Of a stretch of DNA of 64,000 nt, positions 2,646 through 46,500 are shown one piece after another. The notes under the pieces are model-generated. The model ran no database searches and was not told where the DNA came from. It saw only the letters and a program-made list of their open reading frames with translations. The stretch spans positions 3,100,001 to 3,164,000 of the forward strand of contig AP026541.1 in NCBI GenBank assembly GCA_026075535.2. Reading direction: 5' to 3'. The position numbers and the translations under genes were made by a program. This DNA comes from Tricholoma matsutake (Eukaryota > Basidiomycota > Agaricomycetes > Agaricales > Tricholomataceae). Every line of letters begins with the position of its first letter. Positions within the stretch are counted from its first letter, which is position 1.

Positions 2646-2656
2646 AAGGGGGGTAA

Positions 2657-3057: not shown

Positions 3058-3895
3058 AAGCCGAAGTATACATTTTCATAAAAACATTTGTTGATCAAGT
3101 TTGCCCAAAATAGCACACTTGTTGGCATTTAAATTCTGTCTGTGAAATGTCATGGTGAGCCAGAAAACCAAAAACTGCTCTATGATCATGGTGCAACTAC
3201 TCTCAGTCTATGGGAAATAGATATTATTGCTTTGAGAAAAAAAATGGGAAGGATTGGTTCACTCCTCATATCTCAATGTCAGAAATATGTGATTCACCCC
3301 TCATAATGTAGCTTTTACCAACCTCAACCTCAACCAAAAATCAGGGAAAAATCAGAGGAATGTTTCTAATACTCAGATCATCAATTTGAAGATGGTTGGA
3401 GATGTTTTGGGGCTTAGAAAGTGTTATCAGTGTGGTGGTGAAACACTAGTACCATGGTAAAACACTCAGTAAGTGATAGTACTAGTTAGTTTCACAAATA
3501 ACGAGTTATGAGTCCATTATTATTCAGTCCTCTTTGTTCATCAGGTGTTTTGTTGCTGTCGATATTGATGATCAACAATCAATCAAATTGAAGTTGATTG
3601 ATAAGTAGGACTCGTAAAAACCCTTGAATTACCAAAAGAGAAGAAGGCCCAAGAGCATCATGCACATAAGAAAGCTCCCAAAACAAGGGATCACAACTTA
3701 ACCCCCCTCAGTCTACTCCCTCGACCCCAGCTGTCTCTCACAAATGAGCTCAGGGCACATCCATGGATTCCAAGTGAACACAATGAAGCACCGACCGCTG
3801 AACCAACTCCTAGATTTTTCAACCTGTTAACTTACAAGCTGCATGCCTTAGGTGACTACATCTGAACAATATGACTATTTGGTACAACTGACTAA
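3058..3895. other. AT-rich stretch without a recognisable gene
   Basis: No reading frame with coding character, no tRNA-like fold and no terminal repeats were found. It is the space between the Gypsy-A LTR and the 3.0-kb inverted-repeat element. Confidence 0.5.
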
Positions 3896-4824
3896 CACTG
3901 GCTGCACAGCAAGATACTTCTGGGGAGGTATCATGTCAGCATTGTAGAAGTATTCTTAATACTGTCTTCATACTCACCGAGAGATATTTTGCCAGTATTC
4001 ATACCAATCTAAGATCACTGTGGACCTAGCACAGTAGCAATTTCAGCCATTTAAGTGCCAAAACCTGAATTTTCTAACTTAAATGGATGAATTAATGGTG
4101 GATGAATTTGGAATGAATTTTCATCCCATATATTTCAGCCATCCAAGGGATGGAGTTCATATGTGTTACCTTACAAAATATTCTTAACCTAATGGGATGA
4201 ATTTTCATTTTACAAGGGGATGAAATGCAGGGGATGATTTTAATCCAAGATGAGGGTATGGATTTTCAACCATCTAACATATGAATTTTCATCCAAATTT
4301 TCAACAATTTATGGGATAATATTTCCTGCCACAAAGGTGTGAATAATAGGGTGTGTTTTCAGCCTGAGATAGGATTAAAATTTCATACTATTATGAGATG
4401 CTTTTAGTAGGCAAATTTCTTTCATTAAGGATTGAATTGACTGTTCCTTCCTCTGGCAGGTATTATTATTTTCAGTCAGAATGAGAGGATAATCTTCACA
4501 CATCAGGATTGCAAATATTAATTTTTCATCCCAAGAAAGGGGATTTTTCATCTGTGTTGTAATTGTTTACTCACAAGTCATTTTCAGCCCACCCTCAACA
4601 CATCACATGATGAATGTTGAACATCACGTCACATCATCAACCATAACCACCATGCCACCATCTCACCTCACCACGACCACCACCATCAATGATGACGATG
4701 CTCCCCCCTCTCTCCTCTCTCTTCCCACGACCCCAATGCCATCAACGCTGACTCCCACGACAACAAACACAACACCGGCAACACCACCTGTGGCCACAAA
4801 CGAGCCACCTCACTCACAACATGG

Positions 4825-5830
4825 CCCAAACAACGTGAATCGTCATTTGGGCCATAGTAAGTTTTTTTCTTCTATAATTCATGTTCATTTTACTAACTAA
4901 ACTATTACTTTATGTTTAGGGGAAAATGAGGCCTACAACACATGATGGGAATGACGGGAACAACAAATGACAAATGGGAGGGGCAGAGATGGGCAACAAT
5001 GATGATGATGGTGATGGTGACGGAAGAGGGGACGGCAGTGGGAGGCCCATATAGCGGGACCCACCAGGTAAGTACACCCTTATTTACCCGCCACATCACA
5101 CTGACGATGCCCCCACCTCCTTCCCCAGAGCTTGACAATGACATCCGAGAAACATCTGCCCCATGCCCACAAGCGATTGCTCATGGGGTGGATCATGGGT
5201 GCTCACTGCCAATGCCATCCATGCCCCACACCACGCCACTGCAGACGACACGACACCCACCCCCATGCCTATGAGCAACTGCTCATAGGGTGGGATCGCA
5301 GGTGCAGCCTGTCTACAATGACAGGGCGGGGAGGGGACAACACTGCCAGCACAAGCACCAGCAGGACAACGACAGGACACAGGGCGGGGGGGGATGACAT
5401 GACAATGGAGGGGATGACACCCACCCCATGCCTATGAGCACCTGCTCATAGGGTGGATTGTGGGCATCTACGGTGATGGAATGACAAGGGGGACAACACG
5501 ACAACAAGGGGGCATAACAACAACACCTGCAAATGAGCCCCACGACAACTGAAATGATGACATGCAACATGTATCATCGTTTCCCCATAAGTTTTTTTTC
5601 TTTTCTTTTTTTCTTATTTAATTGTACTAATAAACAATTCTACTTAGGGAAAAACTCGACCAGCTATGCTGAAAATGGGCACCCCAACCCCAACTGATGA
5701 TATGCGATGTGTATTGTCATTTGGGGCATGTAAGTTTTTTTCTTGTCTTTCTTTCTTATTCAATCATACTAACCATTAGATTAATTGATTTTTTAGGGAA
5801 ACAACTCGAGGAATCACCCCGAAAATGGGC
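4825..5830 (+). repeat. Repeated exon-intron-like cassettes (three copies)
   Basis: Three related blocks look like the end of an exon, a short intron and the start of the next exon. Introns: 4857-4919 (GTAAGT, TACTAAC branch-like site, TTTAG), 5586-5647 (first base of the donor changed, ATAAGT, then CTTAG) and 5730-5796 (GTAAGT, TACTAAC, TTTAG). Upstream flanks share TCATTTGGG-CAT and downstream flanks share GGGAAAA. The second and third copies lie about 140 bp apart and also share GAAAATGGGCACCCC downstream. A second intron-like type, starting after GGAGGCCCATATAG and ending CCTTCCCCAG, appears near 5064-5130 and 5930-5994. A similar block occurs at 52501-52570. No protein family was recognised. 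Confidence 0.5.
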
Positions 5831-6172
5831 ACCCCACACCCCGTGTGATGAACAAAGGAGGAAACCTGAGGGGTGGAGCGGGGAACAGACAGCGACAGGA
5901 GGGGATGGCGCTTGGAGGCCCATATAGGGCAGGTACGCACCCCACCCCTCTTTTACCCACCACCTCACGCTGACAACCCCCCACCTTCCCCAGGGCACGA
6001 CAAACCAGCACCCACCACACATCCATGAGCAACTGCTCGTGGGGTGGATCGCGGGTGCATCCTCTGATGATGGGGATGAGGGTGACAACGAGTGCAACCC
6101 AGCACCCAGCACCACCACCGAGATGACCAGGCCACAGCACCAGACCCCTCTGCTACAATCAACTGCTTGTAG
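5166..6172. repeat. Five dispersed hairpins (CCTATGAGCA type)
   Basis: Short inverted repeats at 5166-5186, 5268-5289, 5431-5452, 6023-6042 and 6153-6172. The best have perfect 10-bp arms (CCTATGAGCA / TGCTCATAGG) with 2-bp loops AC or CC. The fourth has one G-T wobble and the fifth pairs CTACAA with TTGTAG. The first four are followed by a shared GGGTGGAT(C/T) tail. The changes largely keep pairing. They are too few and too unevenly spaced to be a CRISPR array. Confidence 0.7.
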
Positions 6173-7184
6173 GGAGTAAGGCTGGTGTGTAGGAGGTGGA
6201 GATGACACGGCGAGGGGGACAGGGACAGGGACGATAATGATGGGGACATGATGGGACAATAGGCCAACAATGAGGCATCAGGGGTCTGGGGGATTTTTTC
6301 ACTTCTTTCGAGTAGATTTTGTATCTTAGTGGCTTGAAATTTACTCTGATACATGATGAAACTATTCTATCAATGGGATGAAAAAACATTATTGGCAGGT
6401 TCTTTCATTCCTCTTAAACCCCTGGAAAGTTGATGAAATTCAACCCAGGTAGAGGAGTGTTATTTATGCCCATATAAAGATGAAACCCATCCCATGGGAT
6501 GAATTTGGTGTGGGATGAACTGGGGACAAACTCTGGGAGGAATTCATACCATGGACTCATCCCTTACCTGTAGAAAAAAAACTTCTTTTTTCACTCCTCT
6601 TAGTGGTAGATTTTCATGCCAGCTCCTGATGAAACTTATTCCATTCTGGGGTTTATCAATACATGAAAACTATACCATAAATATATGATTTTACACTATT
6701 TAAAGGTATGAAATGTGGGATGGTTTTCCCACCATGTGGGTCTCATTGTGGATACTACTTGAGTACCTTCAGTACTGTCAAAATATGATATGATACTGTC
6801 AAAATACTTCTGGCAAGTCTGTTGACAATATTAGAAATACTGTCAGGGTACTTCCACAGTACTTCTCCAGCAGTATTGTGCCTTGCACCCAGTGTCATAC
6901 AGTCATACTCAACTCAAATCATGAGCTTTAGGATTTTTTCTCTGTAGGGGCACACTTTTAGCTAACACACCACCCGTAGGGTGAACTTGCACACCGTCTT
7001 GTCAAGCGCTTCTAAGGTAGATCTCATTCAGAATCAACTTGATCACATGAAATGAGTGACATTTTCCAAATCATAATTGCCATTTGGCTAGACAACATTT
7101 TGAAAATTGTGGCCCCACAGAAATGTTTCAAATGTCTTCCCTAAAGATATGTCACTTCACTTTCTCCAAATGTGGTGAGGCTGA

Positions 7185-7421
7185 TGTAGAAAGTGAATCC
7201 TAGTATAAACAACTCAGTCTCTGGATAAGTGACTGAGGTGATAAAGTAAACTACTGAAGATATATATACGTGTAATGCATAACAAAAGGATGTGTGTCAA
7301 AGGAAAAGAGACAAGGGGAAACTTAAACATGAACCGACCATGTGGATCAAAGGGAATGCTAAAAATAGCACACGCATCAAACGCATCAAAAGCATTATGG
7401 ACTCACGGTGCGATTCCAACA
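7185..7421 (-). repeat. Copia-A 3' LTR
   Basis: 237 bp. On the minus strand it begins TGTTGGAATCGCACCG and ends CTACA. It matches the other copy at 12183-12419. Confidence 0.95.
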
Positions 7422-7464
7422 CTCCTCCTCACTGTGGATACACTCCTCCTCGCATGGAATCCCA

Positions 7465-10400
7465 CTAACGAAGGCCAAGAGATGCATGAAGGACGGCGAA
7501 ATGTTTAGGTTCCAGGGCTTTAGTAAACATGTCAGCTACATTGTCACGGGTGTGGATGTAAGTGATAGCTAGATCACCCGACTGTACATGCTCGTGTAGG
7601 AAATGATATTTGATGTCAATGTGCTTAACACGTGAATGAAGTAATGGGTCCTCAGATAATGTCTTCGTAGTGTTGTTGTCGCAGAGGATGGTAGTAGGCA
7701 AGTTTTGATGAAAATCAATAGCGCATAGTAGCGTACACAACCAGATGCATTCCTTTGCGGTCTCAAACACCGCTATGTATTCTGCTTCACAGGTGGAAGC
7801 TGCCACTACCTTCTGTTTACGTGCTGCCCAAGACACTGCACCTGAGCCAAGAGAGCACATGTATCCCCCAATGCTGTGATGAGTGTCATGGCAATTAGCC
7901 CAGTCGGAGTCACTATAGGCGTGCAGGAGAATGGGGTTCTGTCCGCCCAGATAAAGCTTGAAGTCCCTAGTTCCCTTTAGATAATGTACTAGCCATATAG
8001 CAGCACTCCAGTGTTCTAAGGAGTACGAATCAAGGTATTGAGAGAGCTGTTGTACTGCATATGAAATGTTGGGACACGTAGATATTGCCAAGTACAATAA
8101 TCATCTGACAAGAGAGCGGTAGGGAAGCTTGGCCAGGGTGTTCATGGCATCCTGGGACATACATTGCAGATTGGAGTGCCGTAGTTTTGAACCAGGGTCC
8201 AATGGGGCAGAAACGGGGTGTGCTTCTTTCTGACCAAACTGTTCCACTATTTTGTCAATAAGAGCAGTCTGTGAAAGTGCAACAGTATGCATGTCTTGGT
8301 CCCATGAGACAGCAATACCCATAATAAAATGTGCCGTCCCCAATTCTGAGATAGTCCATACTTTGCGCATCTGGTTCTTGAAGCGCTCGTTTTCGTCCTT
8401 GGAGTCGGCAATGGTTAGATAGTTGTCGACATGGACAGCAGCAATAATTGTACCAGTGTCAGTTTTATGGTAATAGATACAGGACTCGCACGAGAGGTGG
8501 GTGAATCCCCAATTTAGCATCTGCACATTAAGGGTCTGATTCCAAATGTGCCCACTCTGTTTCATACCATATAAGCTGCACTGTAGTTGCCAAACCCAGT
8601 CCTCCTTGCCCTGCTCCTCGAAACCAGCAGGCTGCTGCATATATTGAATTTCATTGTCTGGAAGTAAGCCGTAAAGAAAGGCCATCTTTATGTCAACCTG
8701 TTGTGCGTCCCAGCCAAGTGAGGTGGCTATGTGTAAGAGAATCCGCCATGATTCCATGTGCACAGTCGGTGAGGTAGTTTTGGTGTAGTCCCTGCCATAA
8801 ATTTGTTCATTTCCTCTGAAGACTAGGTGTACCTTCCATCTAATAGGGGTACCCACCTCATTGCGCTTAATGTGGAAAATCGGTCTCCCACGCCTAATAC
8901 ATTTCCCTAGTGGAACCTCTGACCTAGGTATTACTTTGTATACCCCCATTTCTTTCAATGAGTTCAATTCCTCCAGATATCCACGCTCCCATTGCATTGC
9001 ATCAACAGATCTTCTGGCTTCATCCCATGTTTTCAGCTCATCCTCAAATTGAAGTGACTCCGGATCAAAATCTACCATTTCCGAGATCAGGGCCTGAAAT
9101 TGATGCACTTGATTGCCCAAATCAAGATTATGAAATGATTGTTGGAGTTCTTCCATGACATCACGATCATGATTGGAGGATTGATCCGTAATGTGATCCA
9201 ATCGTGCAGCCACAATAGCAGCCCGATGCTCCCACCGCGCCTCCTTTACACACGCAGCGCTCTCCAATGATTCTTGCACTGCAGCCACTGTTCTAGTAAT
9301 AGCAGGGCCACCATTGGGGTTTTTGTCTGTGGGTATTAGAACACGGGTAGATCGACAAATAGGCTGGGCAATGGGTGGCAGTGGCGGTGTCGTGAAACTA
9401 TTAGAGGGTGCATCAGGGAGAGTGAATTCATGAGAAGACTCAACATCATCGTCTTGCTGTAAAATAGGACCAAGGAATGTGGGTAGACTACCACTGGACC
9501 CAATATTATCATCCTCTCCTAATTCATCAATTGAAGGTGGTGAATAGCCTTCATGGCTCTCAAGAAAGCGGACATGATATGAAATATGAACCTTACGTGT
9601 TGCACAGTTATAACAGCAATATGCTTTTGATTTTGGCTCGTAGCCTATCAAGACGCATTCGATGGATCGTTCAAGTATCTTGGGATTATCCTTTCCTGGG
9701 ATAAGCACAAAAGCCCTGCAACCTATCTCCTGAAGATAAGAATAATCAGGTTTTCTCTCATACCATAATTCCCAAGGTGTTAGGCTTGCTAGTGAACAGG
9801 TCGTAGTCTTGGCATGCAAGTGGGCAGCTGTGAGGTAGAACTCGTCCCACAAATAAGCTGGCAGACCAGCATATATTTGCATAGTGCGTGCTTTAGCCAT
9901 AAGCATCCTATGCATTCACTCAACACGGCCTATGTGAGCCGAGGTGTGAGGTGCCGTGAAACGCTGATCAATACCACAAGTCTTCAACCACTCCTTCATT
10001 TTGTGCAATTTAAGTTCACCGTTATTGGTGATATAGGTCCCGACTTTGAGGCCAGTTTCGTTCTCCCAGGCAAGTTCCCAAGCTTTAAGTTCCGTGAAAG
10101 CATCATCTTTATTTTGCAATGGTATAGACCATGGGAATGAGGTGTAGTCATCTACTATATCCATGATATAACAGTTCCCCGCACACGACATTACTGAATG
10201 TGGTCCAGATAGATCCACCCACACCTTTTCCAGCTTCCTTGTCGCCTTATGGCCTGGTCCCTCCTGACATTTCTTGGGGACTGGAGACTTGGTCTGCTTG
10301 CCAAGGACACAGGAATCACATTTAGGTAATTTTTGTAATGAAGCAAGCGGCGCACCAGTGAAAGCGCCCTTCTTGGCCATATCCCAGAGTGCCTGGTAAT

Positions 10401-10959
10401 TTGCGTGACCCAGACGACAATGCCATGTCTCGAGAGTAGGGATATTGTGAACCATTAGCACGTGATCAGCCTGGGCCAATGCAATGTTGAGCGTGTAAAG
10501 CTTTCTAGATATGCGCAATCCACGAGCTATGAAGGCCCCGGAGGATTTATCAGTGAACCAGCATGTGTTACTGTCAAAATGTGTGACAGCATTAGAGTCA
10601 TCGGCCAGTGTGCCCACTGAGATCAGCCGAACTGCTGATTTTGGGATGTAGAAGGCATTATGTAAAATAATTGATGCGCCCCAGGCTATTCTTAGCTGTA
10701 TATCACCAACACCGACAGCATCAATAGATGAACCACTGACACCTCTGACAGAGCGAGGTGAAATGGGTCGTAAGGTGAGGAAGTCAGACTTGTCAGGGGA
10801 TATATGTACTGTAGCCCCAGAGTCAATAATAAAGGGGAGAGCATCTAAGGTGATGCATGAGCAACAAGTCTGTGAAAGGGGTTCCATGGTGAGTGCATTG
10901 TCAGGGATGGGTGATGTATGGTGTTTCCAGTCCACTGTAGTGGTGAGCTCCTCCTCCAC
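7465..10959 (-). pseudogene. Copia-A pol (protease, integrase, RT, RNase H)
   Basis: Read from 10959 downward in one frame. Protease active site FIIDSGATVH; pre-integrase region with LETWHCRLGH and a Cys pair (CDSCVLGK); integrase core (VWVDLSGP, DIVDDYTS); a stop at 9916 just after GRVE, where copia elements normally have VERLHR or similar; RT with MAFLYG and LYGMKQSG; a second stop near 8098 before YLAIST; RNase H (DSDWANCHD, STCEAEY) ending in DMFTKAL. The RT catalytic box reads HVDNYLT, so the second aspartate of the usual VDD is asparagine. Both the stops and the D-to-N change fit C-to-T or G-to-A mutation. Probably inactive. Confidence 0.93.
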
Positions 10960-11971
10960 AGCAACCCATCCTTCCTATTCCAGTGCATCCGAAAGGCAGT
11001 GGGTCATGAGCAAGCCCAGCAAATTCTGGTGCAGGTGGGGTAGGAATATCGGGGTTGACCATGACAGTGAAGGCACAACCATTAATGTCCTTCACGATAA
11101 TAGGAACCTTTGTAGTGCCAGCTGGTAAGGATTTCTTCTCATGGGTGGCCCTGCAAGCAGCGATCGACTCCTCGAGTGATTTCCCAGCCATACCACCACC
11201 AGGTTTAATGCAATATTGTTTCGTGTGGCCAAGTTTCCCACAGTTAGTGTTGGTGCAGATTGGTGCATTAGGGAGCTTGGAAGATTTGGACTGTGCGGTA
11301 AAAGCGGCATGGTTTTTGGAACCACCATGCTGATCATTCTCAAGTAGTGATTGTTCGTTCTCCAGAAATAATTTGATATCCTTCGAGCCATATGGAGCTG
11401 AGAGGGAAGAAGCGGCAATATCCTGTGAAATAATGGAGCGAGCATGTGGAAAATTATCACTAAGGGAATTAAGGAGAGCGATGCAACAAAGAAGATCGGC
11501 CTGTATATCACCCATGGCAAAAGCACATTCAATTAATGCGCAAATCTTTTCTGCCGTCTCGGGGAGTGGTGTGTCCTTTGTACACTGGATGGAAAGCGCT
11601 TGTTGTAAGAGCTGGACCTGCCAAACAGGGCCTTCCTTCTGGTGACGGTCCTGGAGAATTTTCCAGTTCGCATCAGGGCCTACTTTAATGTCCAGGAATT
11701 TATGCTCAGATGGAGAGATGCTGGATGTGATAAACACATACGTGAGGCAGAAATTCGCCTTCCAGTTGGCAAGCACTCAGAGTTCGGTAGAAGTGGGCTC
11801 AGGTATTCCGCCCATAACATACTCATAAACCCCGTTTAATGATAAAGCAATAATAATCTCCTCACACCATTCTTTGTAATTTGATTTAAGTTTGTCGAGC
11901 TTCTCCCCGGTATATTGCACAGAAAGTTTGATAGGGGAAACAGACGGGGGATCAACAGTATCGGTACCCAT
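10901..11971 (-). pseudogene. Copia-A gag with CCHC knuckle
   Basis: Starts at 11971 (MGTDTVDPPS), about 210 bases inside the 5' LTR. A TGA at 11777 interrupts it after EPTSTEL; the frame reopens at once (LANWKANF) and continues through a gag-like helical region to a zinc knuckle, C-x4-C-x4-H-x4-C (CTNTNCGKLGHTKQYC). The frame then runs out of phase with pol, with overlapping ends near 10960, so a one-base shift separates gag and pol. In many basidiomycete copia elements gag and pol are one frame, so I read this as a mutation, though programmed shifting is possible. Confidence 0.85.
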
Positions 11972-12171
11972 GATAGAAAACCGAGGTCAGTGGACGACGA
12001 GTGTGCAAAGGGAGATGAGAGAGACCCAATGGTAGAGCAGCCGGGTCTGTGAAAGACAAAGGAATTGATCCGAGATCAAAAAACGATCGGGGAAACAGAT
12101 CAGAAGGTATGATGAAGCAGAACGTCGAGTGGCTAGGATACTTTCTCCCGTTGTTCAAAGACAACAAGAAT

Positions 12172-12182
12172 GGCCCATAACC
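12172..12182 (-). promoter_or_regulatory. Copia-A primer binding site (half-tRNA type)
   Basis: Directly inside the 5' LTR the minus strand reads GGTTATGGGCC. This is complementary to the anticodon stem-loop of initiator tRNA-Met (GGCCCAUAACC), the internal priming mode known from Drosophila copia. Copia-B has the same site. Confidence 0.8.
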
Positions 12183-12419
12183 TGTAGAAAGTGAATCCTA
12201 GTATAAACAACTCAGTCTCTGGATAAGTGACTGAGGTGATAAAGTAAACTACTGAAGATATATATACGTGTAATGCGTAACAAAAGGATGTGTGTCAAAG
12301 GAAAAGAGACAAGGGGAAACTTAAACACAAACCGACCACGCGGATCAAAGGGAATGCTAAAAATAGCACACACATCAAACACATCAAAAGCGTTATGGAC
12401 TCACGGTGCGATTCCAACA
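12183..12419 (-). repeat. Copia-A 5' LTR
   Basis: 237 bp, TG...CA ends, followed on the minus strand by the primer binding site. Compared with 7185-7421 it retains CpG at most of the differing positions, while the 3' LTR mostly has TpG or CpA. Confidence 0.95.
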
Positions 12420-17918: not shown

Positions 17919-19819
17919 CAAGTTCTATGGTAGAGGGTGTGACGAGATTGATCCGTGTGACATCTCGCGTTGCTGACAAGACTTCCACGCGGGCAAAACC
18001 ATTTCGGATTGTACAACAGCGTATGCCCATCCGTCAGCATTTCGTCTCGAAACTCAGGATTTTTCAGAGTTTAAATGCAGAAAAATGCCTTTATAAGAGG
18101 AGAGGAGAAGTGGAACATGGAACAGTATACTGCTTCGAATAGAATACTTAGAATAAATTCGACCGCAGCCTAATTTGTAGTGCCTAATATACACCAGGGA
18201 TAATGGCATACGGCACCTTTTTTGCCCAAACTTCCCACTCTTCTCCAAACTGCGACTTCAACACTTCATCCTCCGTGGCTGTCCTGATTGCTATCCTCAA
18301 CAGTCCAAAAACGCTCATAGCGATCACGGTAAGTAGCGCGAGCCTCCCAACAATGTGGTTCCAAACCTCCGACTCCATCACCCACGACCCTCGCGCGACG
18401 TGATGTAGCATTATCCCCGCGAACGAAATGAACAACGCGCTATACGAGGGGTGCCTCACAATCCCGTACGGGCCAGTGGTAACGAGTCTGTGATGTGAGC
18501 GGACGGAGAGCTCGAATGTGAAATGGGCGCCGAGTGCGCGATAGCAATAAATCCGGAGGAACCCGCCCAGAAAGGTTATAAGTGCACCGATCGCTGACAG
18601 CGGGGAAAGTTGCATCCTTGCCGCAGAGGTGGGGTTGAGAAAAAAGACAGAAAGTGCATCTTCAGGGTCTGAGAAGAAAGCTATGGACTGGAATTTAGAT
18701 CCTTCGGTGGTAGTCAAGTTAAAGATGATTATTGCGATTATTTCGATGAATCCAAGCATCATGAAGCTATACTGTTGGGAGAGCATTTGTAAATTCCACA
18801 TTCGATCTCCCAAGAGCATACGATAATTACCTTCGTGAGAGGTATAACGTGCGTAACTCGGAAACGACCCTCCGTTTTCACAGCGATCGACTCGTTCTCT
18901 TTCGTTGCAGGAACGCGAGGAGGTGTTAGGGTGTTGTGAAAACCGATGATGGCTGCGAGGAGGAATGGTATTTTGGCCAGCGACATTTGAGTTCAAAATG
19001 CTATTCAGTGCACAGTTGTTGGGAATAGAAGTTGATAAAATCAAGTGAGTTGAAGTCGACCTTATATACTCTACATACCGTAGGTCCGTAACATACGAGA
19101 TCAAGAACTGTATATCCCGATACACAAGTAACTTAGGACCTGAGTAATGGCCGGGCTCCCAAGTGCCGGATTGACACCTAGCATTCAAGACGGCACTCCC
19201 TAAAATTTCACGCTTGAGTCGTGGTTAAAACGTTAACTTGCCAGAGTTACGGACAAATGAGGAAGCTATTCAAAACCTCCCTCTCATATTAGCAACAAGT
19301 GAGTCAGTAAGGTTGGTTACCTACCAGAAGAGCTTATCCTTCTGTATTCTTGAGTCCATAATTCGAGCGAAACCAACCTAATTGGCAACAACGCTAGATC
19401 GAGCCGTAGCGGATTGGGAGCCTCCCTCCCCGCCGGATCAATGTGCTAATGCGTGAGATTGATACCAGCTGATACCGCTAATAGCTCTTAGCCGCTATGG
19501 CAATCTGGAGTGAGTTGCTCGATTTTCAAGCCCCGAGCTCAGTACCTGGCAGGACCCCGTGTACATCCGGCTATAAGGGACTGATATGCGACACTAATGA
19601 CCGTCTCGAATCATACGAAAGGCAAAAATACATGCAAGAATGCCAATAATCAGTATGTATTTCATAGGATCAACAAATTGTATCAGTATGTGGTATGTAC
19701 GAGTCTGGTGATTGCCTAATGCGAGCTTCAAAAGTTCTAGAGCATGTTATACATTTGGTATCGGTTGCAACGAAAGATGCTATGGACGTCACTACAAAGG
19801 AGATTTCGAGGCATGGCTT
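17919..19819. repeat. Left arm of a ~1.9-kb inverted duplication (ICMT gene copy 1)
   Basis: The reverse complement matches 28911-30812 along its length. From about 18020 to 19450 I see no differences, on either strand. Nearer the inner end (19450-19819) there are substitutions and small indels, for example GACGTCC against GATGTGC and an 8-base segment absent here. At the outer end similarity runs through ACCATAGAACTTGT, which in the right arm is interrupted by MITE copy B at the TA. The spacer between the arms is about 9 kb. Confidence 0.95.
18184..18986 (-). CDS. STE14: Isoprenylcysteine O-methyltransferase, copy 1
   Basis: Methylates the C-terminal prenylcysteine of Ras-type GTPases and farnesylated pheromones at the ER membrane. 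Start at 18986 (MSLAKIPFLLAAIIGFHNTL); a 59-bp intron at 18772-18830 (GTAATT...AACAG) joins LTK to YSFMMLGF, giving about 247 residues. Several hydrophobic segments are followed by the catalytic signature LVTTGPYGIVRHPSY and the C-terminal EEWEVWAKKVPYAIIPGVY, hallmarks of the ICMT/PEMT fold. A longer intron-less reading from an upstream ATG exists but lacks family similarity in its N-terminus. The coding part is the same as copy 2 at 29748-30550. Basidiomycetes often carry several ICMT paralogues; which copy is expressed cannot be told here. Confidence 0.9.
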
Positions 19820-20100
19820 CAAGCATCAGGAAAAAAGGTGATAGCAATGTAGAGCTATGTAGCCTATGTAGTAATTATAGCCCGGTAGTCTTCCCCCAAA
19901 AATATAGTTCACTGTAGCTGTGTGCCAATGATTTATAGTACTATCAAACAGTACAATGACTACATTGGGCACTGCAATAGATACATAGCCAACATACGCT
20001 CAATGGAACACTATTGTGGCGATGTCCTTCACAACATCAGGAGTCGATGGTTCACCTACCCAAGCATCAACAGATATGTTATGTCGCATGCACAGTTAAC

Positions 20101-21948: not shown

Positions 21949-22432
21949 TCATTGGTGCTTCCCTCCGTGTCCTCGCCTGGATGCCTCACAAGTGATGCAC
22001 ACCCAATTCTGTGGCTCTAGCTCAAGTTCTACACATTGTAGATGATACTGGACATATAAAGGGAGTCAGAAAATTCATCAGCGCTCATAATACGCTGTAC
22101 TTACCCACTGAGTCTCGCAACCAGCTTGTTTGCACTCGAGTACCCCATTCAATGAACTGTCAAGGACTTGCCCGCATAAACACCCATTCAGTGCATCTGC
22201 AAGTTTGTGTGGAACCCTTTTGCACTTTGACCCAGGAATTTCAATTTCCATTGCCGCCGCCACCTGTATGTGATTTGCATTGTTCACGCTGCCTTCATTT
22301 GCACCGCTACTTTCACTCGGTTGGTTGTTCTGTTGAACATAGTAAGTATATCTCCACTGATAAAGCTAATGACAGGACTCATACTGTCATTGATTGACAG
22401 TTCCAAATATCATACAATTGGAACAGCTTCTA
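21949..22432 (-). pseudogene. 3' end of an older copy of the 5.9-kb element's gene (PHD-like exons)
   Basis: On the minus strand, LADALNGCLCGQVLDS and ECKQAGCETQW are followed by a GTAAGT...GTAG intron and then LELEPQNWVCITCEASRRG to a TGA at 21949. This is the same Cys/His finger, with the same intron position, as the C-terminus of the plus-strand gene ending at 28134 (GCETEW, intron, APRNWTCPSCK). The upstream part of this older gene continues on the far side of the 5.9-kb insertion at 28345. Broken by the insertion and by stops. Confidence 0.75.
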
Positions 22433-25400
22433 CAAGGGGGTGGCAGAATGGGAATCCTGAACCACCGGTAGGGGGGAGGGGGGGTCTGGCAGAGGCCAAA
22501 AAAAATAATAATCTTGAGCTTGAATTAGGCTCTCCGCTACTGTTTGAGCAGATCTATTACTCTTTTTATGCTTCAGAAGCATTCAATGTAGTCCGAAGCT
22601 CCGAATAGACAGTTAATACCTAATAGTTACTAGATAGAAGTATTTTTTTTTCACTGGCATTTGTTCAACGCGTCGAAGAAAAGGTACTTATTGATATAAT
22701 TAAGCATTTGAACATATAGGCTAATGGGGAGAGTAGTAAAGCCAATGAGTTCACTGAGGAGAGCACATTACAATGTCCAGAATATACTGCAGACATTCAT
22801 GTTGGGACTGGTGGCAGAAAGAATCTTGACATTCATAAAGGGTCTAAGGCATGTCAAGCCAAATGCAATCAAAAAAAAGCTTCAGTCTGGCCTAAGTCCA
22901 AGGGACAGACCAATCGTTCATTACATACATTCTTCAAAGTGAAAGCCCCACTAAATCCACCACTTGTTGCAGCACCGTTGCCTATTCACGCTCCAAAGAT
23001 TCTGTCCAAGCTCTTGACACTCAAGAGCAATGATATACCAATGAAACCAATGGAACCTGGTCTGGAAGAATTGATCTATCCTTTGATGAGTACCACAGGG
23101 CCAGCATTCGATGTCTGTCAAAATGCATCAGAACTTCTCTCTAATCTTTGTAGAGAGATGAATCAAATCCCACCGGAAAATCCACCTGCAACTGGAGAAA
23201 ATTGTCTACATCCTTTCAGAGGAGATCCAGCTGCGTCTGTCCATCAAGATGCTGATGATTGGGAAGATCTTTTGAATCCAATGTTGAAGCAAGTGTTTGG
23301 CTGGGGAGAGGAAGAAATGCACAATTCTGTGAAAGAGATGATGTGCCATGGTAGATATGGGCTGGATGGATTTGTTGCATTCCTGGATTACTTCGTGATG
23401 CACTGGGGTTTAAAAGGCAGGATGCTTGAGTCAAAGGTCATGGCAGTGATAAGAGAGCTGGAAGCTAGGTGCATCACTGCATGAGACAAAATGTAAAATG
23501 AAACTCTTGACACTTATGATAAACCCACAGATATCCACGACAACTTGGTCCGATACTTCCTGAGGTAATTGATATTGATCAAATTGATAACCTAACAGAT
23601 AATGTGGAACTTGAATGGTACATTCCAGCTGTTCCCGAGCCCATGGAATTGTGTATGGTAGTACAATCCAATGACCAGCATGGGTGTGTTGGAAATCTTG
23701 TTACATTCCTGTCCGGAAAGAATCAGCATACTTCCTATTCCTTTGGCCTTCATAGCAAGCAAATGATTCCATGGAACTACCACTCCATTGATGACAAGTT
23801 CTATCTGCAGGCAAGGTCATGCTCAAAGCAATTGGTGGATGAGAAAAGTGCTTGCCTTGCATGCAGGACTCTGAAGTCAACCCCCCTCTACCAGGGCATT
23901 ATCCATCGAATGGAGCATGGTGTTCACAAAAACATGCCTCTTATGTATCATAGAGTAGGGGGTCTCATTGTGGCTGTCAGATGGAAGATCGATCAAGTGC
24001 AGCAGATGCATTTGACAAAGCTAAACACTGGTTGGAAGCTCTTGGGGAAAGTGGTGATGTTGGAGGACCACAAGCAGTGGATTTTGGCGGTTGCGAGCGG
24101 CAGGGTCGATCATGTTGCATCACTCATGCAGGCAGGTTTGACGCATCATGCAGGCATTCGGAGCTTGATCCAGCAGTATGAACAAGCAGCAAACAAACTA
24201 TACAAGCCCAAAGGTTATATGGAAGATGATCTCATGTGCTCTATTGTCATGTTGCGGCTTGGTGGTGCACATGTTGCAGATTTCGCACACAGATCATTAT
24301 CATTACCAAGTCTCACAACTATCAGACAGAATACCATCATACGACCGCTTATCGTCTTGCCATCTTTGCCTACAGTTGCAGAGGTTGAGAAAAATATCAT
24401 GTCTTGTTTTGATGCCCTCTCTAGCCTTGAAGATGATACTCCCTCAACCCATTTCCTTCAAAATCTGACATCTGTCTGCCACCAGGTTTTAATGCTCAAT
24501 GAACTAGCAACTGAGAAATGGCTGCGGTGGGACGATTTGACTGACAAGTTTCAGGGTACATGCAGAGAACATAACTCTAAAAATTCTTCAATGTTCTCGT
24601 CTGTTGGATATGTTATGTGATGCCCTCGATGATAGCAAGGTTCACTTAGTGAGTGAGGTATGTGCTCCATTGTTCTCCAAGTCTCTGACAGGTTTCTGGA
24701 TTCTGCAAGCTAACAGTGATCAATTTTTTTTTCTAGGCAACAGTTGCCACATTGGGTGTTATCTCTGAAAATCCCCGTGAATACAGTATTTGTCTGATTA
24801 TGTTTTCTGGTACCTGCAAGTGGGAAACAGGTGTACAACATGCTAAATTAATCCAGATGCTTCTCATGGCAAGTGACAACCAGAGAAAACATGGTGGGCT
24901 TACCTACCACACAGTTTGCATTGCATCAGATGGAGAATCAAAATGTGGCGACACACTTGTCTGTCTCACCATGAACTCCACCTTATCGTCAGATTCTCAG
25001 ATCTACAAACAAGTGAAGGGCCTCAAAATCATGAACCTTCTTGTTGGTCCCAATGATATAACATCCGACAAAGATTTCAAGCATATTTTCAAGCGCCAGC
25101 AGAATCTCATGATGTGCAACAAGGGAATCATCATAGAAGGTTTCTGTATCACTCCCTCAATTCTTTGTGTACATCTTCAGTCCAATGGTGTCTCATCATT
25201 TTGACTCAGAGCTCTCCTCAATCCAAATGATCGGCAAGATGTTGTCCTTGGCTACTCCCTGCTGAGAGAAATCTGGTCACTCCCTGCTTCACCAGCTGGC
25301 TCTGATCCTGTGTTCGTGCAAACCCATCAAGCTTTATATGTTTATGGACAGTTCACACGCAATCTTATGATGCCATATATCTGCATTGATCTCGATCTTG

Positions 25401-28344
25401 ACAAGCAGCTTATCCAGCTGAGTACAGCAGCGCATTTGGCACTCTACCTCTATAGTGATAATTCAGCATGCACAAAGTTCATGCCCACTCAATCCTATGT
25501 CAACATCATGCTGATGGTCAAAAATGTCTACTTTTGCATTGCCAAGTTCAAGATTGATATGCCCCATGGATATTTCTACATTATTTTACTTAGGACAGAC
25601 CGTTTAGAGCTCTTTTTTGGACTAGTTCAAACATCAGTTGGTCCTGACAACAATGTTGATACAACGCAGTTGGGAAGTCACACATCAGGCCTCACAGAAG
25701 TTGCAGTTATACTAGCTTGTCATCCTGAATGGGACTGCCCTCCTCGATGGTTGAAGCTCCCTGTCATCTCCAAGGAGTCTGGCAAGATCACTTCCAAGGC
25801 AGATCACATCAACCCAGCCTCTTGGCACGGCACTGTCAAAGTTTCGACAGTCAAAAACCTGCTGGATTCTTGGTCGTCAGAGAGCTATCAAAATTGCTCC
25901 AGAGGCTTGCATGGCATTTGAACATCTCAGTAGCAGTCCTGACATCGATATTCTATCTCCACTTGGTGACATTCTGGTCAACATTCAAGATGCGGATGAT
26001 GAGTATGACTGCTCTGAGTTGATGGACATGTATGGTGGTAGTCCAGATGCCCCCTCATTTGAACCTGTGATTGGAGTCATTACTCCAGATAGCTTGTTGT
26101 CTCATATGCCTTACACTCACAAAGGAGATATGGAAGATGCAATCACTGAAGAAGTTCCTCAAAGTGCAACGATCACATCTGAGATCATCATAAATGGACA
26201 GAAGATGGCCAAAGCCAAGGCTATATGACACAGGATGATGTATCGGACAAACCGCTCTTCGACCGATCAGTTGAAACACGTACAGCAAATAGCATGTTTT
26301 AATGCTGTTCCTTCATCTGGGCTTGACTCAGACATAATCTCACCCTTGGTTCCCCTTGTCTACACATTGGCAACCCGATTGCCACCCTTGTACAATGTGA
26401 AGGTCAGATATTTCTTGCCATTGCTCAAATTAACTGGTTACATTTTGCATCCGACAACAATCTCAATGAGATTCATCTACCTTCCAGCAACTGTGGAAGA
26501 TGATCCGATGAAAGAGTATGACTGGTGCTGGTCTCTGCAAATGGACTTCACTTGTGATGGTGTCCCTGGTCACTTTGCTCATCCAATCAATCCCTTGATA
26601 TCAGTCCGCACACCTGGAAAACCAACCTATCTCCTTCATAGTTCTTTTTTAGTATCCCTTGCCTCTAACTTGTATGAGGAATTATCACTGCATGACCATC
26701 ATGATATACCAGCTGTAAAATGCTCACTGTTTTTTCCCTATTGCCACGAGGGAAAAGCCTGCTTTGTATGTCAAGAGGATGAGGCTGGGTATATCAGCAA
26801 TGAGACTTCTGACTGTTCACTGTGTGGGCTGAGAGTTCAGCTGAATAAAGCAAATGGACAGCGGATTCTGGAACACATGGGTGCACATATCATGTTTGAC
26901 AGTACTATTGACAGAAACTCCCAGGAGTTGTGTGATCTATGCCTCTGGCCATCACCAATGTGCAGGCTTACCCTCAAAAAGGGATGTGGTTCTGCAGCGG
27001 GCTATAATGTTGATATCAACACATCAACCTGTATTAATGTGATTTGGTTCAACTATGCTACAGCAGCACACCCATCAGAATCATCCCCTTGTTCAAATGT
27101 CCTAACAATTTGCCCCCTGTGTCCTCCCAGGAGCCCTGCTGTTTGGACTTACAACCTCCGTACTCATTTCCATGGCCGGCACAAGCTTATGCCCACTCAA
27201 TTTCCTCTCAACACACAGCTCTTGGAATCAGAAAAACATGGTATGCATCGGATCTGGGAGGCACACTTCAAGCTTCCAAAGTCTCGCAACTTGAAGAATA
27301 AACAACGACATGCACTTGCACTGTCTGAAGCACATAGCTCTTGAGCCACACTCCAGTCAGTATTCAGATATCAAGCTGCTACATTATTGACATCATGAAC
27401 ATGCACAGGAATGTTAAGGAAGATGATGATGTTTCATCTGATGGTGAGCCCCTTAACAACGAGCCAGATGATGTGTACAGGCAGTCTGGTGATGAGGAAG
27501 ATGACCATGAAGGGCAAGATGATGACCATGAACAGGACAATGATGACCATGACCAAGACTTCCTTGGGGTAAGGGAACTGGGTGCTATCAGTAGCGATGA
27601 GGAACAAAACCTCTCACCCTCACCTGTCAGAACTCAGCCGCCAAGCCCTGGACAATCACAAATCCATCCCATTGCCTCTGAGTCACCTGTTACATACCAA
27701 GTTGAACCTGCACAGCTGTCACCAGGAACAAGTGAAATTCCACCTCCTCTGTCTCATCAAATCGAGCATCCTGAGCAGGATTCAAGCCTTCATGACACAA
27801 CCGTTGCATCAACTGTTCAGGACTCATTCATAGAAACTCGCAGGGGTCGTGTGCGTAAGGCTCACATGTTCCAGCTGAATGCATGTATATGCAGCTCAGA
27901 AGTATCTGAGGTGGAAATCAAGGAAGGTGACACCATGATGCAGTGCAAAGTGCCAGGATGCGAGACAGAATGGGTTAGTACATCATTTTGACATGGTTTC
28001 TGTTTCACTTACTAACTAACTTTTATCCTCAGTACCATTGTGCATGTATGTCATACAATTTCGCTCCAAGAAATTGGACATGTCCTAGTTGTAAAGGCAG
28101 TAGTACAACTGCAAAGTGCAGACATGCAGTATGAGTTACTGGTTGGCACCAGTGTTGATATTTGAGCCATAGTAGCGCTCAAATGTAGCAAATAGAAGAT
28201 AATAGTCAAATAATAGTTCGTTGAAAACATGTGCACATGACCAAAATTACTATATATGGAAGGAGGGGGGGGGAGGGGGTCCTCTGGCTGGCTGAAAAAA
28301 AAATCTGAGTGGATATTGGATTTTCCTGTTCTGCCACCCCCTTG
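22433..28344 (+). mobile_element. 5.9-kb TIR DNA transposon, P-element-like candidate
   Basis: Both ends carry the 16-bp inverted repeat CAAGGGGGTGGCAGAA (22433-22448) and TTCTGCCACCCCCTTG (28329-28344). The flanking 8-mers are AGCTTCTA and AGCTTGGA, six of eight matching, consistent with an aged 8-bp target duplication. Just inside both ends are G-rich then A-rich runs. The sequence on either side is a minus-strand relative of the element's own gene, so it inserted into an older family member. The single gene inside is broken, so this copy is probably dead or mobilised in trans. The superfamily is an inference from transposase motifs and duplication length. Confidence 0.75.
22720..28134 (+). 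pseudogene. Broken transposase-like gene: zinc finger, RNase H-like core, Cys/His modules, PHD-like finger
   Basis: Plus-strand gene in pieces, belonging to a long protein family I know from many Agaricomycete genomes without a named function. In order: N-terminal Cys/His region (CPEYTADIHVGTGG, HKGSKACQ; from 22720); helical block (MYHRVGGLIVAVRW, YKPKGYMEDDLM, RLGGAHVADFAHRSLSLPSL; 23604-24590); core with ASDGESKCGD, TSDKDFKHIFKRQQN and DRLELFFGLVQ then NNVDTTQLGSH (24750-25900), which resemble the D, D-x-H-x-x-K-x-x-R-N and LE-x-F-F-G-x-x-R motifs of P-element/THAP9 transposases; Cys modules CSLCGLRVQ and CPLCPPRSP (26800-27200); acidic linker; PHD-like finger (27880-28130, split by an intron). 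Stops and shifts near 23482, 24600, 25201 and 25919 break it, some possibly unrecognised introns. The intron at about 24658-24737 is convincing. Confidence 0.7.
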
Positions 28345-28741
28345 AGCTTGGAATTCTGCACAGAATCCAAATCAGCCCACATTTTGCAGTCTTTGGCAGC
28401 CTCTTCCCTTCCCACTCTCACCACACTGCCCGGGTCTTCCATTCCTCCCCAAAACTCACCAATGTCCTCTTCTTCGGCATCCTCTTCTTCGTTGAAATCA
28501 CCCCCCTCTGCATTGTCATATGGAAAGACATTCAAGGCATATGTTTTTTCACTCGCTTTCTGGTGCTAGAGGCCTTCCTAAAGCTGTAACACTCTCCATA
28601 CTGTCTGTGGATACTAATAATATATTTTAATGTACTCAATTTGGTGTTCCGAGGTCCTGTTCCGGAGGTGTCCTTTTTTTTTTCACAGCCTGCGGCTGGA
28701 CTAACTAACCGGGCACCGGTACGGGATTCCCGGGCCGGCAC
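28345..28741 (-). pseudogene. Upstream part of the older element's gene (acidic linker)
   Basis: The minus strand reads an acidic segment (NAEGGDFNEEEDAEEEDIGE, then FWGGMEDPGS) ending at SVQNSKL, exactly at the insertion point of the 5.9-kb element. On the far side (22432) the minus strand continues with EAVPIV and then the PHD-like exons. An acidic linker before a PHD-like finger is the same order as in the plus-strand gene (EEDDHEGQDDDHEQDNDDH). Upstream of about 28741 nothing further of this gene is recognisable. Confidence 0.6.
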
Positions 28742-28754
28742 TTTGAGTGCCTTA

Positions 28755-28930
28755 GCTCGTACCCCTTCACTTTCAAGTCATGTCCCGAAATCTTCTTTAC
28801 CTTCGCCTACAAGAAGTGCACCTTAGTTCATACTCCTTCATGTTCCAAAATCTTTGTTGGTTTCGTCTACGAGAAGTTCTTACACCCTTAACTCATACTC
28901 CTTCACTTTCAAGCCATGCCTCGAAATCTC
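28755..28930 (+). repeat. Degenerate ~65-70 bp tandem repeat, about three units
   Basis: Units start near 28755, 28825 and 28890, each with a CTCATACTCCTTCACTTTCA-like phrase, then an AAATCTTCTTT-like phrase and CTACAAGAAGT. The last unit runs into the inner edge of the right inverted-duplication arm. One more copy of the phrase is at 21785. Confidence 0.55.
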
Positions 28931-30812
28931 CTTTGTAGTGATGTGCATAGCATCTTTCGTTGCAACCGATACTGAATGTATAACATGCTCTAGAACTTTT
29001 GAAGTTCACATTAGGCAATCAACAGACTCGTACATACCACATACCGATACAATTTGTTGATCCTATGAAATACATACTGATTATTGGCATTCTTGCATGT
29101 ATTTTTGCCTTTCGTATGATTCGAGACGGTCATTAGTGTCGCATAACCGTGTATCAGTCCCTTATAGCCGGATGTACACGGGGTCCTGCCAGGTACTGAG
29201 CTCGGGGCTTGAAAATCGAGCAACTCTCACTCCGGATTGCCATAGCGGCTGAGAGCGGTCTATTAGCGGTATCAATTTCACGCATTAGCACATTGATCCG
29301 GCGGGGAGGGAGGCTCCCAATCCGCTACGGCTCGATCTAGCGTTGTTGCCAATTAGGTTGGTTTCGCTCGAATTATGGACTCAAGAATACAGAAGGATAA
29401 GCTCTTCTGGTAGGTAACCAACCTTACTGACTCACTTGTTGCTAATATGAGAGGGAGGTTTTGAATAGCTTCCTCATTTGTCCGTAACTCTGGCAAGTTA
29501 ACGTTTTAACCACGACTCAAGCGTGAAATTTTAGGGAGTGCCGTCTTGAATGCTAGGTGTCAATCCGGCACTTGGGAGCCCGGCCATTACTCAGGTCCTA
29601 AGTTACTTGTGTATCGGGATATACAGTTCTTGATCTCGTATGTTACGGACCTACGGTATGTAGAGTATATAAGGTCGACTTCAACTCACTTGATTTTATC
29701 AACTTCTATTCCCAACAACTGTGCACTGAATAGCATTTTGAACTCAAATGTCGCTGGCCAAAATACCATTCCTCCTCGCAGCCATCATCGGTTTTCACAA
29801 CACCCTAACACCTCCTCGCGTTCCTGCAACGAAAGAGAACGAGTCGATCGCTGTGAAAACGGAGGGTCGTTTCCGAGTTACGCACGTTATACCTCTCACG
29901 AAGGTAATTATCGTATGCTCTTGGGAGATCGAATGTGGAATTTACAAATGCTCTCCCAACAGTATAGCTTCATGATGCTTGGATTCATCGAAATAATCGC
30001 AATAATCATCTTTAACTTGACTACCACCGAAGGATCTAAATTCCAGTCCATAGCTTTCTTCTCAGACCCTGAAGATGCACTTTCTGTCTTTTTTCTCAAC
30101 CCCACCTCTGCGGCAAGGATGCAACTTTCCCCGCTGTCAGCGATCGGTGCACTTATAACCTTTCTGGGCGGGTTCCTCCGGATTTATTGCTATCGCGCAC
30201 TCGGCGCCCATTTCACATTCGAGCTCTCCGTCCGCTCACATCACAGACTCGTTACCACTGGCCCGTACGGGATTGTGAGGCACCCCTCGTATAGCGCGTT
30301 GTTCATTTCGTTCGCGGGGATAATGCTACATCACGTCGCGCGAGGGTCGTGGGTGATGGAGTCGGAGGTTTGGAACCACATTGTTGGGAGGCTCGCGCTA
30401 CTTACCGTGATCGCTATGAGCGTTTTTGGACTGTTGAGGATAGCAATCAGGACAGCCACGGAGGATGAAGTGTTGAAGTCGCAGTTTGGAGAAGAGTGGG
30501 AAGTTTGGGCAAAAAAGGTGCCGTATGCCATTATCCCTGGTGTATATTAGGCACTACAAATTAGGCTGCGGTCGAATTTATTCTAAGTATTCTATTCGAA
30601 GCAGTATACTGTTCCATGTTCCACTTCTCCTCTCCTCTTATAAAGGCATTTTTCTGCATTTAAACTCTGAAAAATCCTGAGTTTCGAGACGAAATGCTGA
30701 CGGATGGGCATATGTACGCTGTTGTACAATCCGAAATGGTTTTGCCCGCGTGGAAGTCTTGTCAGCAACGCGAGATGTCACACGGATCAATCTCGTCACA
30801 CCCTCTATCATA
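28911..30812. repeat. Right arm of the ~1.9-kb inverted duplication (ICMT gene copy 2)
   Basis: Reverse-complement match to 17919-19819. No differences seen from about 29280 to 30700, which covers the gene and its near flanks; the inner 370 bp are several percent different, with an 8-base insertion (near 29146) and other indels. Ends at a TA where MITE copy B is inserted; after the MITE the shared phrase GAACTTGT continues. Confidence 0.95.
29748..30550 (+). CDS. STE14: Isoprenylcysteine O-methyltransferase, copy 2
   Basis: Second copy of the ICMT gene, in opposite orientation to copy 1. ATG 29748, exon 1 of 52 codons, 59-bp intron 29904-29962 (GTAATT...AACAG, phase 0), exon 2 to TAG at 30548, about 247 residues. 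The catalytic TTGPYGIVRHPSY and terminal IIPGVY motifs are intact, so both copies appear functional. The promoter-side flank beyond about 470 bp upstream differs between copies, and the 3' side here carries MITE copy B about 260 bp after the stop, so the two could be regulated differently. Confidence 0.9.
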
Positions 30813-43226: not shown

Positions 43227-43531
43227 TGTTGGAGCAGACTATATACGCTGCACAGGGGAAGAGACAACACGTTCCTTACAACCTACCTGGGGTTTAGTTA
43301 GACTTACAGCTAGGGTTAGCAGAGGTAAGAACACTGTATTCCTACTATGGTACAGGTTCTCCTTATATACATAATATTAAGGATGTCACATGACTCGGGA
43401 ATGTGTTTACCGCATGTATGCGCAGTAAGCGCAGTAACATGCGTATGCTGCATGTATCGCCTCATGTATACATGTGTATGCTGCATGTATTGCCTCATGT
43501 ATACAGCATGCATCAGGGATTAATTTCAACA
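43227..43531 (-). repeat. Copia-B 3' LTR
   Basis: 305 bp, TGTTG...CAACA ends. On the minus strand it is preceded by the polypurine tract GAGGGGGGG (43532-43540). It carries several ATGTATAC / GTATACAT-type short palindromic phrases (43400-43510). Confidence 0.95.
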
Positions 43532-43563
43532 CCCCCCCTCAAACTGTACAGCGCTCTAAGCAG

Positions 43564-46500
43564 CTAAGTTTGAATCTCGAAAGTAATTCCGAGAGAGTCT
43601 CTAAATTTCCTGAATAGGACGGCGCCAAGGTTCTTTGTGAACATGTCAGCCGGATTATCACTTCCAGGAATGAAAACGACTGTGACTTTGTCATTTTCTA
43701 TGCATTCGCGGGTGTAGTGGTAGCGAATGTCTATATGTTTGGTCCTTCTTTCCTGAACTGGATTTGATCCAATAAAGATGGATCCTTGATTATCAGCGCA
43801 GATTGGTACGCGCTTCAGTGTATATCCAAGTTCCTGGAATAAGGACTCTATCCACACTATCTGCCGACAAGTGTCGGAGAGAGCCATGTATTCGGCTTCT
43901 GTGGATGACAGTGCTACAGTTTTTTGTAAACGGGACTGCCAGCACACAATGCCACTCGCCAGAGTAGCAAAGTAACCCATTGTAGATCGGCGCTTGACTG
44001 TGTCAGCTGCCCAATCAGAATCTGTGAAGGCCTGTAGCCCCTCAGATTTCTCTCCATCATAGACTATACTGTACTTCTGGGTTCCCACCAGATAGCGCAT
44101 TATGTACATTGCTTTGTCTAGATGTTCTTGGCTAGGATTAGCCGAGAATTGCGACATCTTGATTACCGTGTAAGCGATATCAGGTCGCGTTCCGAGCATC
44201 AGATACAATAAAGATCCGATCACAGACTGATATTTTGATCTAAGCGCCGCATTTGGCGTCGCTGTGTTCTCCGACGGTTTGTAGCCAGTCGGGAGCGGAG
44301 TGGGGGCAATCTTGGCATTTGTCATCTCGAACCTCTCAAGCACTTTGGCGAGATATTCTGTTTGATCGAGTTTGACTTTTGCAGCGGTCTGGGTGACGCG
44401 CATGCCTAAGAATTCCGTGACTTTTTCAGTACTATGGCACTCCCAATGCTTCAGGCAAGCATTCTTCTTTTCATCCACAAGTTTCTTGTTCTTGCCCATG
44501 AACAAGCCATCATCAACATAGACTAGCGCAATAACGATGCTGCCTGTCTTAGGATCCTTGTGTATGAAGATGCCGGCATCGGAGCTGGCACGCATGAACC
44601 CAATGGTGCGCATAAATGCCTCTAGCTCTCTCCACCATGCTAGTGAAGCCTGTTTAAGGCCATACAATGCTCGGCGTAAGCGCATTACTTTGCGCTCTTT
44701 ACCCTCGAGTTTGAAACCCTCAGGTTGATCCATATAGATCTCCTCATCAAGTTTGCCGTATAAAAATGCGGTTTTTACATCTAGACCGGTCATATACATG
44801 CCTTCTAGAGACGCAAGGGCAAACATGAGGCGTACGGTCTCGTAGCGGACTACTGGTGAGAAAATCTCATCAAAGTCAACGCCTTCGACTTGTGAAAAGC
44901 CTTTGGCCACGAGTCTGGCTCATTTTCTTCCATCCGATTTCACAGAGAAAACCCATCTATTTTTGATCGTTTTTCGATCATGTGGAAGATCGACGATGTC
45001 ATAGACTTGTCGCTTGCGAAGAGCCTCTAACTCTTCACGACAAGCCTGTTTCCACTCAAGTTGCTGCTGCCGGGGTAGGCGCGCAATATCGCGAAATTGG
45101 TTTGGAACTAGGCTTTTTCTGCTTGATGGTGTGACTGCTTTTGACAACAGCCAGCGGATAAGCTCATCTCCACCTTCCTTGGTTATCTTTTTAATATAAC
45201 CTGCTTCGTCCGGTTCCCCCATTGGGTGATCATGTTCTTGATTATTGGAATCGGGCACACTCTCATGGGGTGCCGAACTCGGTCCAGTAACCGGTTCTTG
45301 CTGTTGAGGTCGTGGTCGTGTTCAGTTATGATCCGAATCTTGACCCACAGACTTCTTCCAATATCGATCACGTGCAATGTCTCTCTCTATGTCAGAGGGG
45401 AGTCGCTGTTCTCCATAGGTATTGCCGGGATGGTTTGGGATTTTCCTCTGCCTGCCTGATCGATGGGGCAATTGCTGCCATTCCTGTTGATCTTCACGTC
45501 TTGGACAAAAGTCCTCAGTGCTAACTGGAGGCGGCGGAGGAGGAGCATTAGTCGCATCGTCATGCGCCTTTTGCTCGCTTGGTAAATCATCATCATCATC
45601 TTCTGATGATGGAGGAAGGGGTGGATTTTGTGGCGGTATAGGGTCATCGCCATCCATTCCAGATGAGTGGTCGTCATCTTCTGGTTCTGGTGGAAAATCA
45701 CCAAGGTCTGTCTTGGCAGGAGTTTTAGCTCCGGGACAGCATGGGAACATCGTTTCATCAAATAGTGCCGTAGCACCAATGAATATTGCGCCGTTTCGTC
45801 GCATGAAACGATATGCTTTAATGCCATCTTCTACTCCAAGGTACGTCATTAGCTCCGATCGAGGAGACAATGTTGTTGGACGTTTTTCCTTTGGTAGATA
45901 GACATAAGCACCGCAACCGAAGACCTTCAGATTGTTTAGATCTGGGCGGACCTTTGTCAGGTCCTCAAAAGGTGTCAGCCATTTGAGGCGCCTTATTGGG
46001 GTTCAGTTGTATAAATGTGTTGCATGTTCTATGCAAAATTCCCACCATGATTGTGGTAGACAAGCGGTGAATCGCAGGGTTTGCGACTTTTCCATTATTG
46101 TCCTTATAGCGCGCTCTGCGCGCCCATTCTGTTGATGAACGTGGGGTGCAGACATCTCTATTTTGATGCCTAAATCCTTGAGCTGTTTTTGTAGCTCACG
46201 ATCCTTGAACTCCCCCCCTGGATCGACATGCCAGCGCTTGATTGTAGCGCCATATTGGGTCTTAGCCATCGCTTGAAATTGTCTAATCGCTGCAGCAGCG
46301 TCAGATTTCTTTCTGAGACATTGGACCCAAATATATGACGTTTTGTCATCCAGAAATACAATGAAGTATTTATGTTTGTGGTACGATAGTACCGGGAGTT
46401 CCTTTAGGTCGGAATGTATTAATTCAAAGGATTTGTCAGCTCGTGAGTCTGACTCGGGAAAAGATTTTGAGGTCATTTTCCCTTCTGCACACCCTGGACA

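Follow-up and report, generated by a model that had tools for sequence, protein, structure and literature searches.

What is the sequence at 22433..28344 of a 64,000-nt stretch of Tricholoma matsutake contig AP026541.1 (GCA_026075535.2; this whole stretch is hereafter the window), and did it ever move? A first-pass annotation, made from the letters alone, had proposed a possible undescribed family of P-element-like DNA transposons, whose large gene would belong to a long, unnamed mushroom protein family. We find that the interval is a decayed, non-functional copy, and almost certainly a copy of a P-superfamily cut-and-paste DNA transposon. The direct observations comprise the element ends, target-site duplications, empty sites, a deletion derivative, the predicted fold of the transposase and its conserved catalytic triad.

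Matching ends, 8-bp duplications and empty sites

The 16-bp terminal inverted repeats (TIRs) described by the first-pass annotation were recovered exactly where it had placed them, as CAAGGGGGTGGCAGAA occurs without mismatch at 22433-22448 (+ strand) and 28329-28344 (- strand). At up to 3 mismatches, these two element ends were the only matches in the window, while shuffled sequences gave a mean of 0.49 matches and reached 2 matches in 10 of 100 shuffles. Counted by eye, the left TIR (22433..22454, + strand) agrees with the other end at 20 of 22 positions, and the right TIR spans 28323..28344 on the - strand, as revealed by pattern search and by the sequence itself. Immediately inward of the two TIRs, the + strand has G-rich runs (22471-22485 and 28262-28279), which are possible candidate quadruplex-forming or binding sites. 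No convincing subterminal inverted repeat was found in the window copy, which differs in this respect from the P element.

The 8-bp flanks, previously noted as near-matching, are AGCTTCTA on the left (22425..22432) and AGCTTGGA on the right (28345..28352), and they agree at 6/8 positions. This imperfection is explained by related empty sites. When the two flanks of the window element were joined, this 300-base sequence aligned over 297-300 bases with three places at 92-93% identity (L065-L067), and the junction AGCTTCTACCTC(G/A)GAATTC was present in these three and in two partial relatives, L068 and L069, the likeness of L069 stopping soon past the junction. The element-free junction of all five carries the 8-mer AGCTTCTA (n=5), and the right flank of the window element is the junction sequence minus CTACCTC. 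Because the empty-site junctions match the right flank except for these 7 bp, AGCTTCTA originally flanked the element on either side as an exact duplication that was later damaged; by eye, AGCTTGGA reads as its remnant after the deletion.

The same ends are abundant in the 161-Mb genome, where allowing up to 2 mismatches gives 727 sites, compared to 98 for a reversed-pattern control. Of these 727 sites, 100 were listed, and selection by eye among them gave 13 inverted pairs with a spacing below 10 kb, the window element being one. Their 8-bp flanks were identical (8/8) in nine pairs; two others scored 7/8, the window element 6/8 and L020 2/8, compared to a maximum of 5/8 in 154 mismatched pairings. 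Moreover, a shifted register never gave 7/8, and none of the 13 pairs was exact at 6, 7, 9, 10 or 11 bp. Two of the nine exact pairs, L009 and L010, have a common duplication and 97.6% identity, suggesting that they may be a single insertion that was later duplicated.

Empty sites were also found for L059, a 5945-bp element whose joined flanks were matched by 40/40 scored candidates (the best 40 of 140) over bases 1-298 of 300 with 91-96% identity; a single ATATGCAT stands in 3/3 of those read. Therefore, considering the matching ends, the 8-bp target duplications and the sister sites that are still empty, the family was mobile, and the empty sites are the strongest evidence of this mobility.

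By blastn, shorter copies of 0.8-2.7 kb are similar to the four full-length elements (the window, L059, L061 and L063) chiefly at the termini, and we take them to be probable non-autonomous copies. The exception is L018, which corresponds to the window element without its middle (bases 1-276 and 3724-5912, 84-85% identical). A 9.2-kb TIR-bounded copy with an exact duplication was also noticed (L015, 201-9417); read by eye, it seems to contain a nested long terminal repeat (LTR) retrotransposon.

Transposase loci and TIR subfamilies

Matches to the transposase at E<=0.001 amount to 88 segments in the genome, counted as segments and not as loci. Both ends were found in 4 of the 7 transposase loci that were inspected with their flanks, namely the window, L059, L061 (6003 bp, ends CAAGGGGGAACC.., duplication CCCATGGG) and L063 (5627 bp, ends CAAGGGGTACCCGGGATG.., duplication TTGTACAT). 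Ends of the L063 type occur 44 times genome-wide and 0 times in the control, and those of the L061 type 57 times compared to 1, many of them at 2 mismatches and perhaps belonging to other sequences. Among ten TIR pairs chosen by eye from the L061 and L063 types, 8 had an exact 8-bp duplication in the tested register; of these eight, the pair at C8:7581771-7587161 encloses a transposase match. The remaining pairs were L083/L084, scoring 0/8 as tested and, by eye, exact after a one-base shift for an apparent 1-bp loss at the left end, and L091/L092, which scored 6/8 and lies inside a longer palindrome. In L063, a second inverted pair (AGGACCCCC.., 928-7583) stands outside the element, is itself flanked by an exact 8-bp repeat, CCCCTCTT, and is possibly another transposon that received the P-like insertion.

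The transposase family has the predicted fold and the catalytic triad of a P element

The large gene was compared with its relatives through a family alignment of at most 41 rows, in which only rows carrying a letter at a given column were counted. The AF2 model of a homologue that shares 58% identity with the window protein showed an RNase H core with the fold of the P element, and in a structure comparison the best solved fold was the P element transposase by a wide margin. A D-D-E triad is located on beta1, beta4 and the C-terminal helix (D in 17/18, D in 35/35 and E in 39/39 rows). On the + strand of the window these positions are 24498..24500, where the codon AAT gives Asn in place of the first Asp; 24929..24931, the second Asp, within IASDGE; and 25607-25609, the Glu.

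The two motifs on which the first-pass annotation had based its reading were present, SDKDFKHIFKRQQN at 25064..25105 and DRLELFFGLVQ at 25598..25630, both on the + strand. The former, of the form DKDxKHxxKRxxN, contains D320xxH323, invariant in 41/41 rows and placed directly after strand 316-319 (beta5), and corresponds to the D(2)H signature of the P superfamily as described in PMC8230255. The latter, the DRLELFFG motif, carries the catalytic Glu, and its region gave a sub-threshold match to PF21789 (E 0.079), a model that stayed below threshold in the window open reading frames (ORFs) and homologues alike. In the longest relatives listed (about 1,000-1,190 amino acids), the RNase H core is predicted to be split by a helical insertion domain, which in the predicted model falls inside the range aligned with 6pe2. 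PF21787 was above its cut-off in P0013, the only such case seen, and was found at E<=0.01 in 7/41 homologues, the other 34 being without it. The proposal that this unnamed mushroom protein family is a transposase is thus upheld by its RNase H core, by TIR-bounded copies with duplications and by empty sites.

Several results weigh against a P-superfamily assignment. The P element GTP-binding model PF21788 and the THAP model PF05485 had no listed match in the protein scans, which for THAP covered 7 window ORFs (E<=1), 10 homologues (E<=1), 41 homologues (E<=0.01) and 9 long ones (E<=0.1), many of which are without their N terminus. The family profile matched no PDB sequence at E<=10, the P element included. 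Searches of the genome with PF21787, PF21788 and PF05485 were likewise negative, which says little as these models also matched in 0/14 control genomes. Regarding the ends, L020 has TIRs and no duplication (2/8), and a convincing TIR pair was missing in 3 of the 7 inspected loci: L060 has one TIR-like end with 3 mismatches, L062 an end candidate only at chance level, and in L064 no end was found.

Accessory domains and the decayed window gene

Upstream of the core, a conserved Cys/His-rich domain (23685..23864, + strand) is defined, in ORF numbering, by C55 (23/23 rows), H69 (19/24), H77 (24/24), C100 (24/24), C111 (24/24) and C114 (23/23). In AF2 model mda7e13f761a6 (whole-model pLDDT 71.1, higher in the Cys/His-rich part; pTM 0.41), it is followed by a 47-residue helix and then by further helices. 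Fold comparison of this domain gave no clear match; considering also that many scanned proteins are without an N terminus, it is possible that the domain is a diverged THAP.

Three further types of motif were recognized on the + strand. A C2HC-type zinc-finger-like motif was read by eye near the N terminus (22765..22854), its second Cys being Tyr here and Cys in L059; its spacing recurs in 4 of 34 long homologues, P0136 among them being doubtful. Two C2H2-like motifs (26814..26891 and 27111..27182) lie in the C-terminal part, where the spacing is found in 7/34 long homologues, many of the others ending before this region. Finally, a PHD-finger-like motif closes the protein (27881..28098, as 27881-27973 + 28033-28098 with an inferred GT..AG intron between); it is whole in the window, its first half is present in L059 and L063, and among the 34 long homologues only P0157, whose UniRef name is PHD-type, has such a spacing. 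Most listed homologues stop short of the C2H2/PHD-like region. Since none of these motifs had a Pfam match, they are a reading of Cys/His spacing.

We tentatively consider, with slightly less than even confidence, that the family is a fungus-specific P branch in which THAP was swapped for an unrelated Cys/His-rich zinc domain and a C-terminal PHD-like finger was gained that may steer integration via chromatin, while TIR subfamilies (CAAGGGGGTGGCAG.., CAAGGGGGAACC.., CAAGGGGTACCCGGG..) would diversify alongside the transposase.

The one large gene of the first-pass annotation is indeed present on the + strand, at about 22.7-28.1 kb with several exons or broken frames, but it is not intact. An in-frame TGA breaks the transposase core (25202..25204, + strand), a second one follows (26226..26228, + strand), and the reading frame shifts at about 25.9 and 27.3 kb. 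Given these lesions, together with the Asp to Asn change and the lost zinc-finger Cys, no active transposase is expected from the window copy. In the repeated left flank, a short ORF on the - strand (22078-22365) has a Cys spacing resembling the PHD-like end of the transposase, and may be what is left of an older element that was hit by the insertion of the window element.

Other features surround the element. A 1.9-kb inverted duplication, 98% identical, flanks the transposon region (17926-19822 and 28908-30812), each arm having a 346-amino-acid ORF that matches isoprenylcysteine/phospholipid methyltransferase families. Two copia-type retrotransposons (43227-48983 and 7185-12419) have direct repeats, probable LTRs, that are 99.3% and 96.6% identical, respectively, and an open 1304-amino-acid Gypsy-type polyprotein with a chromodomain occupies 60070-63981.

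Discussion

Is the family new? The P-element-like part of the original proposal stands; the word undescribed should be softened, as annotation tables already use a class label, 'P-Fungi'. P-like elements in fungi are thus already catalogued, since tables including that of Pleurotus ostreatus use this label as a transposon class. The table in PMC12387193 gives 10 copies and 46,557 bp, about 4.7 kb each, which are, like our family, fungal, P-assigned, several kilobases long and from an agaricomycete. The mushroom family is likely what this label covers, and a common lineage with the class of the repeat libraries is probable, a point that touches novelty and not mechanism. Against it, the correspondence is one of label, and the label is also placed on a little Daphnia DNA in PMC8594854, which blurs its coverage. 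A description of such a family was not found in the literature searched, among the matches listed. To this the present analysis adds the element ends, their target duplications and empty sites, as well as an unusual domain layout.

A KDZ/Zisupton-type transposon is a very improbable alternative. These elements are common in basidiomycetes, Zisupton likewise makes 8-bp duplications according to PMC12730594, and the KDZ model PF18758 matched at least 165 places in the same genome (the best 150 of 831 candidates scored). However, their transposase is a different one: PF18758 was in the scanned library, yet had no match in any window ORF or family homologue, while the best fold was that of the P element by a wide margin and the P-type D(2)H motif was invariant. 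Many of the KDZ transposase domains in this genome have internal stops. Equally improbable is a Transib/RAG-like or hAT-like transposase, which would have in common only the layout of an RNase H core plus an insertion domain. That a host gene simply lies, immobile, between chance inverted repeats has a negligible chance of being right: relatives such as L062 and L064 are without detected TIRs, but the empty sites already refute this explanation, and exact duplications, with none in controls, and hundreds of end sequences also speak against it.

The P-superfamily transposon finds its closest counterparts in the Drosophila P element (PDB 6p5a, 6pe2) and THAP9. The likeness includes a split RNase H core with D-D-E and D(2)H after beta5, a helical insertion domain between beta5 and the Glu-carrying helix, a long upstream helix followed by a helical region, short TIRs, 8-bp duplications and an internally deleted copy. 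In contrast, THAP is not detectable in the mushroom family, which has instead its conserved Cys/His-rich domain N-terminal to the long helix and is, in addition, extended far at the C terminus by a region that carries C2H2-like and PHD-like motifs; its elements measure about 5.6-6.0 kb compared to 2.9 kb for the P element.

The biochemistry, any need for GTP included, and the roles of the accessory modules are inferred. As in the P element, transposase subunits would pair the element ends through the TIRs, excise the element and attach its 3' ends to both target strands at points 8 bp from each other, and repair of this stagger would produce the 8-bp duplication. Among the likely functions of the accessory modules (N-terminal zinc-finger-like, Cys/His-rich, long helix, C2H2-like and PHD-like) are end binding and dimerisation, and they might also guide the choice of target by way of chromatin. 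Element copies that have no transposase would have moved in trans.

The family is found across mushrooms. The predicted protein has 369 homologues at E<=0.001, and among the 120 listed, those that have a name are nearly always called 'hypothetical' or 'uncharacterized'; hundreds of predicted proteins could become named P-type transposases, and the repeat annotation of mushroom genomes would improve. Knowledge of P elements comes chiefly from animals. A branch in fungi whose DNA-binding modules differ would separate the essential parts (split RNase H, insertion domain, 8-bp spacing) from the exchangeable ones, and makes GTP dependence testable as a general feature of the P superfamily.
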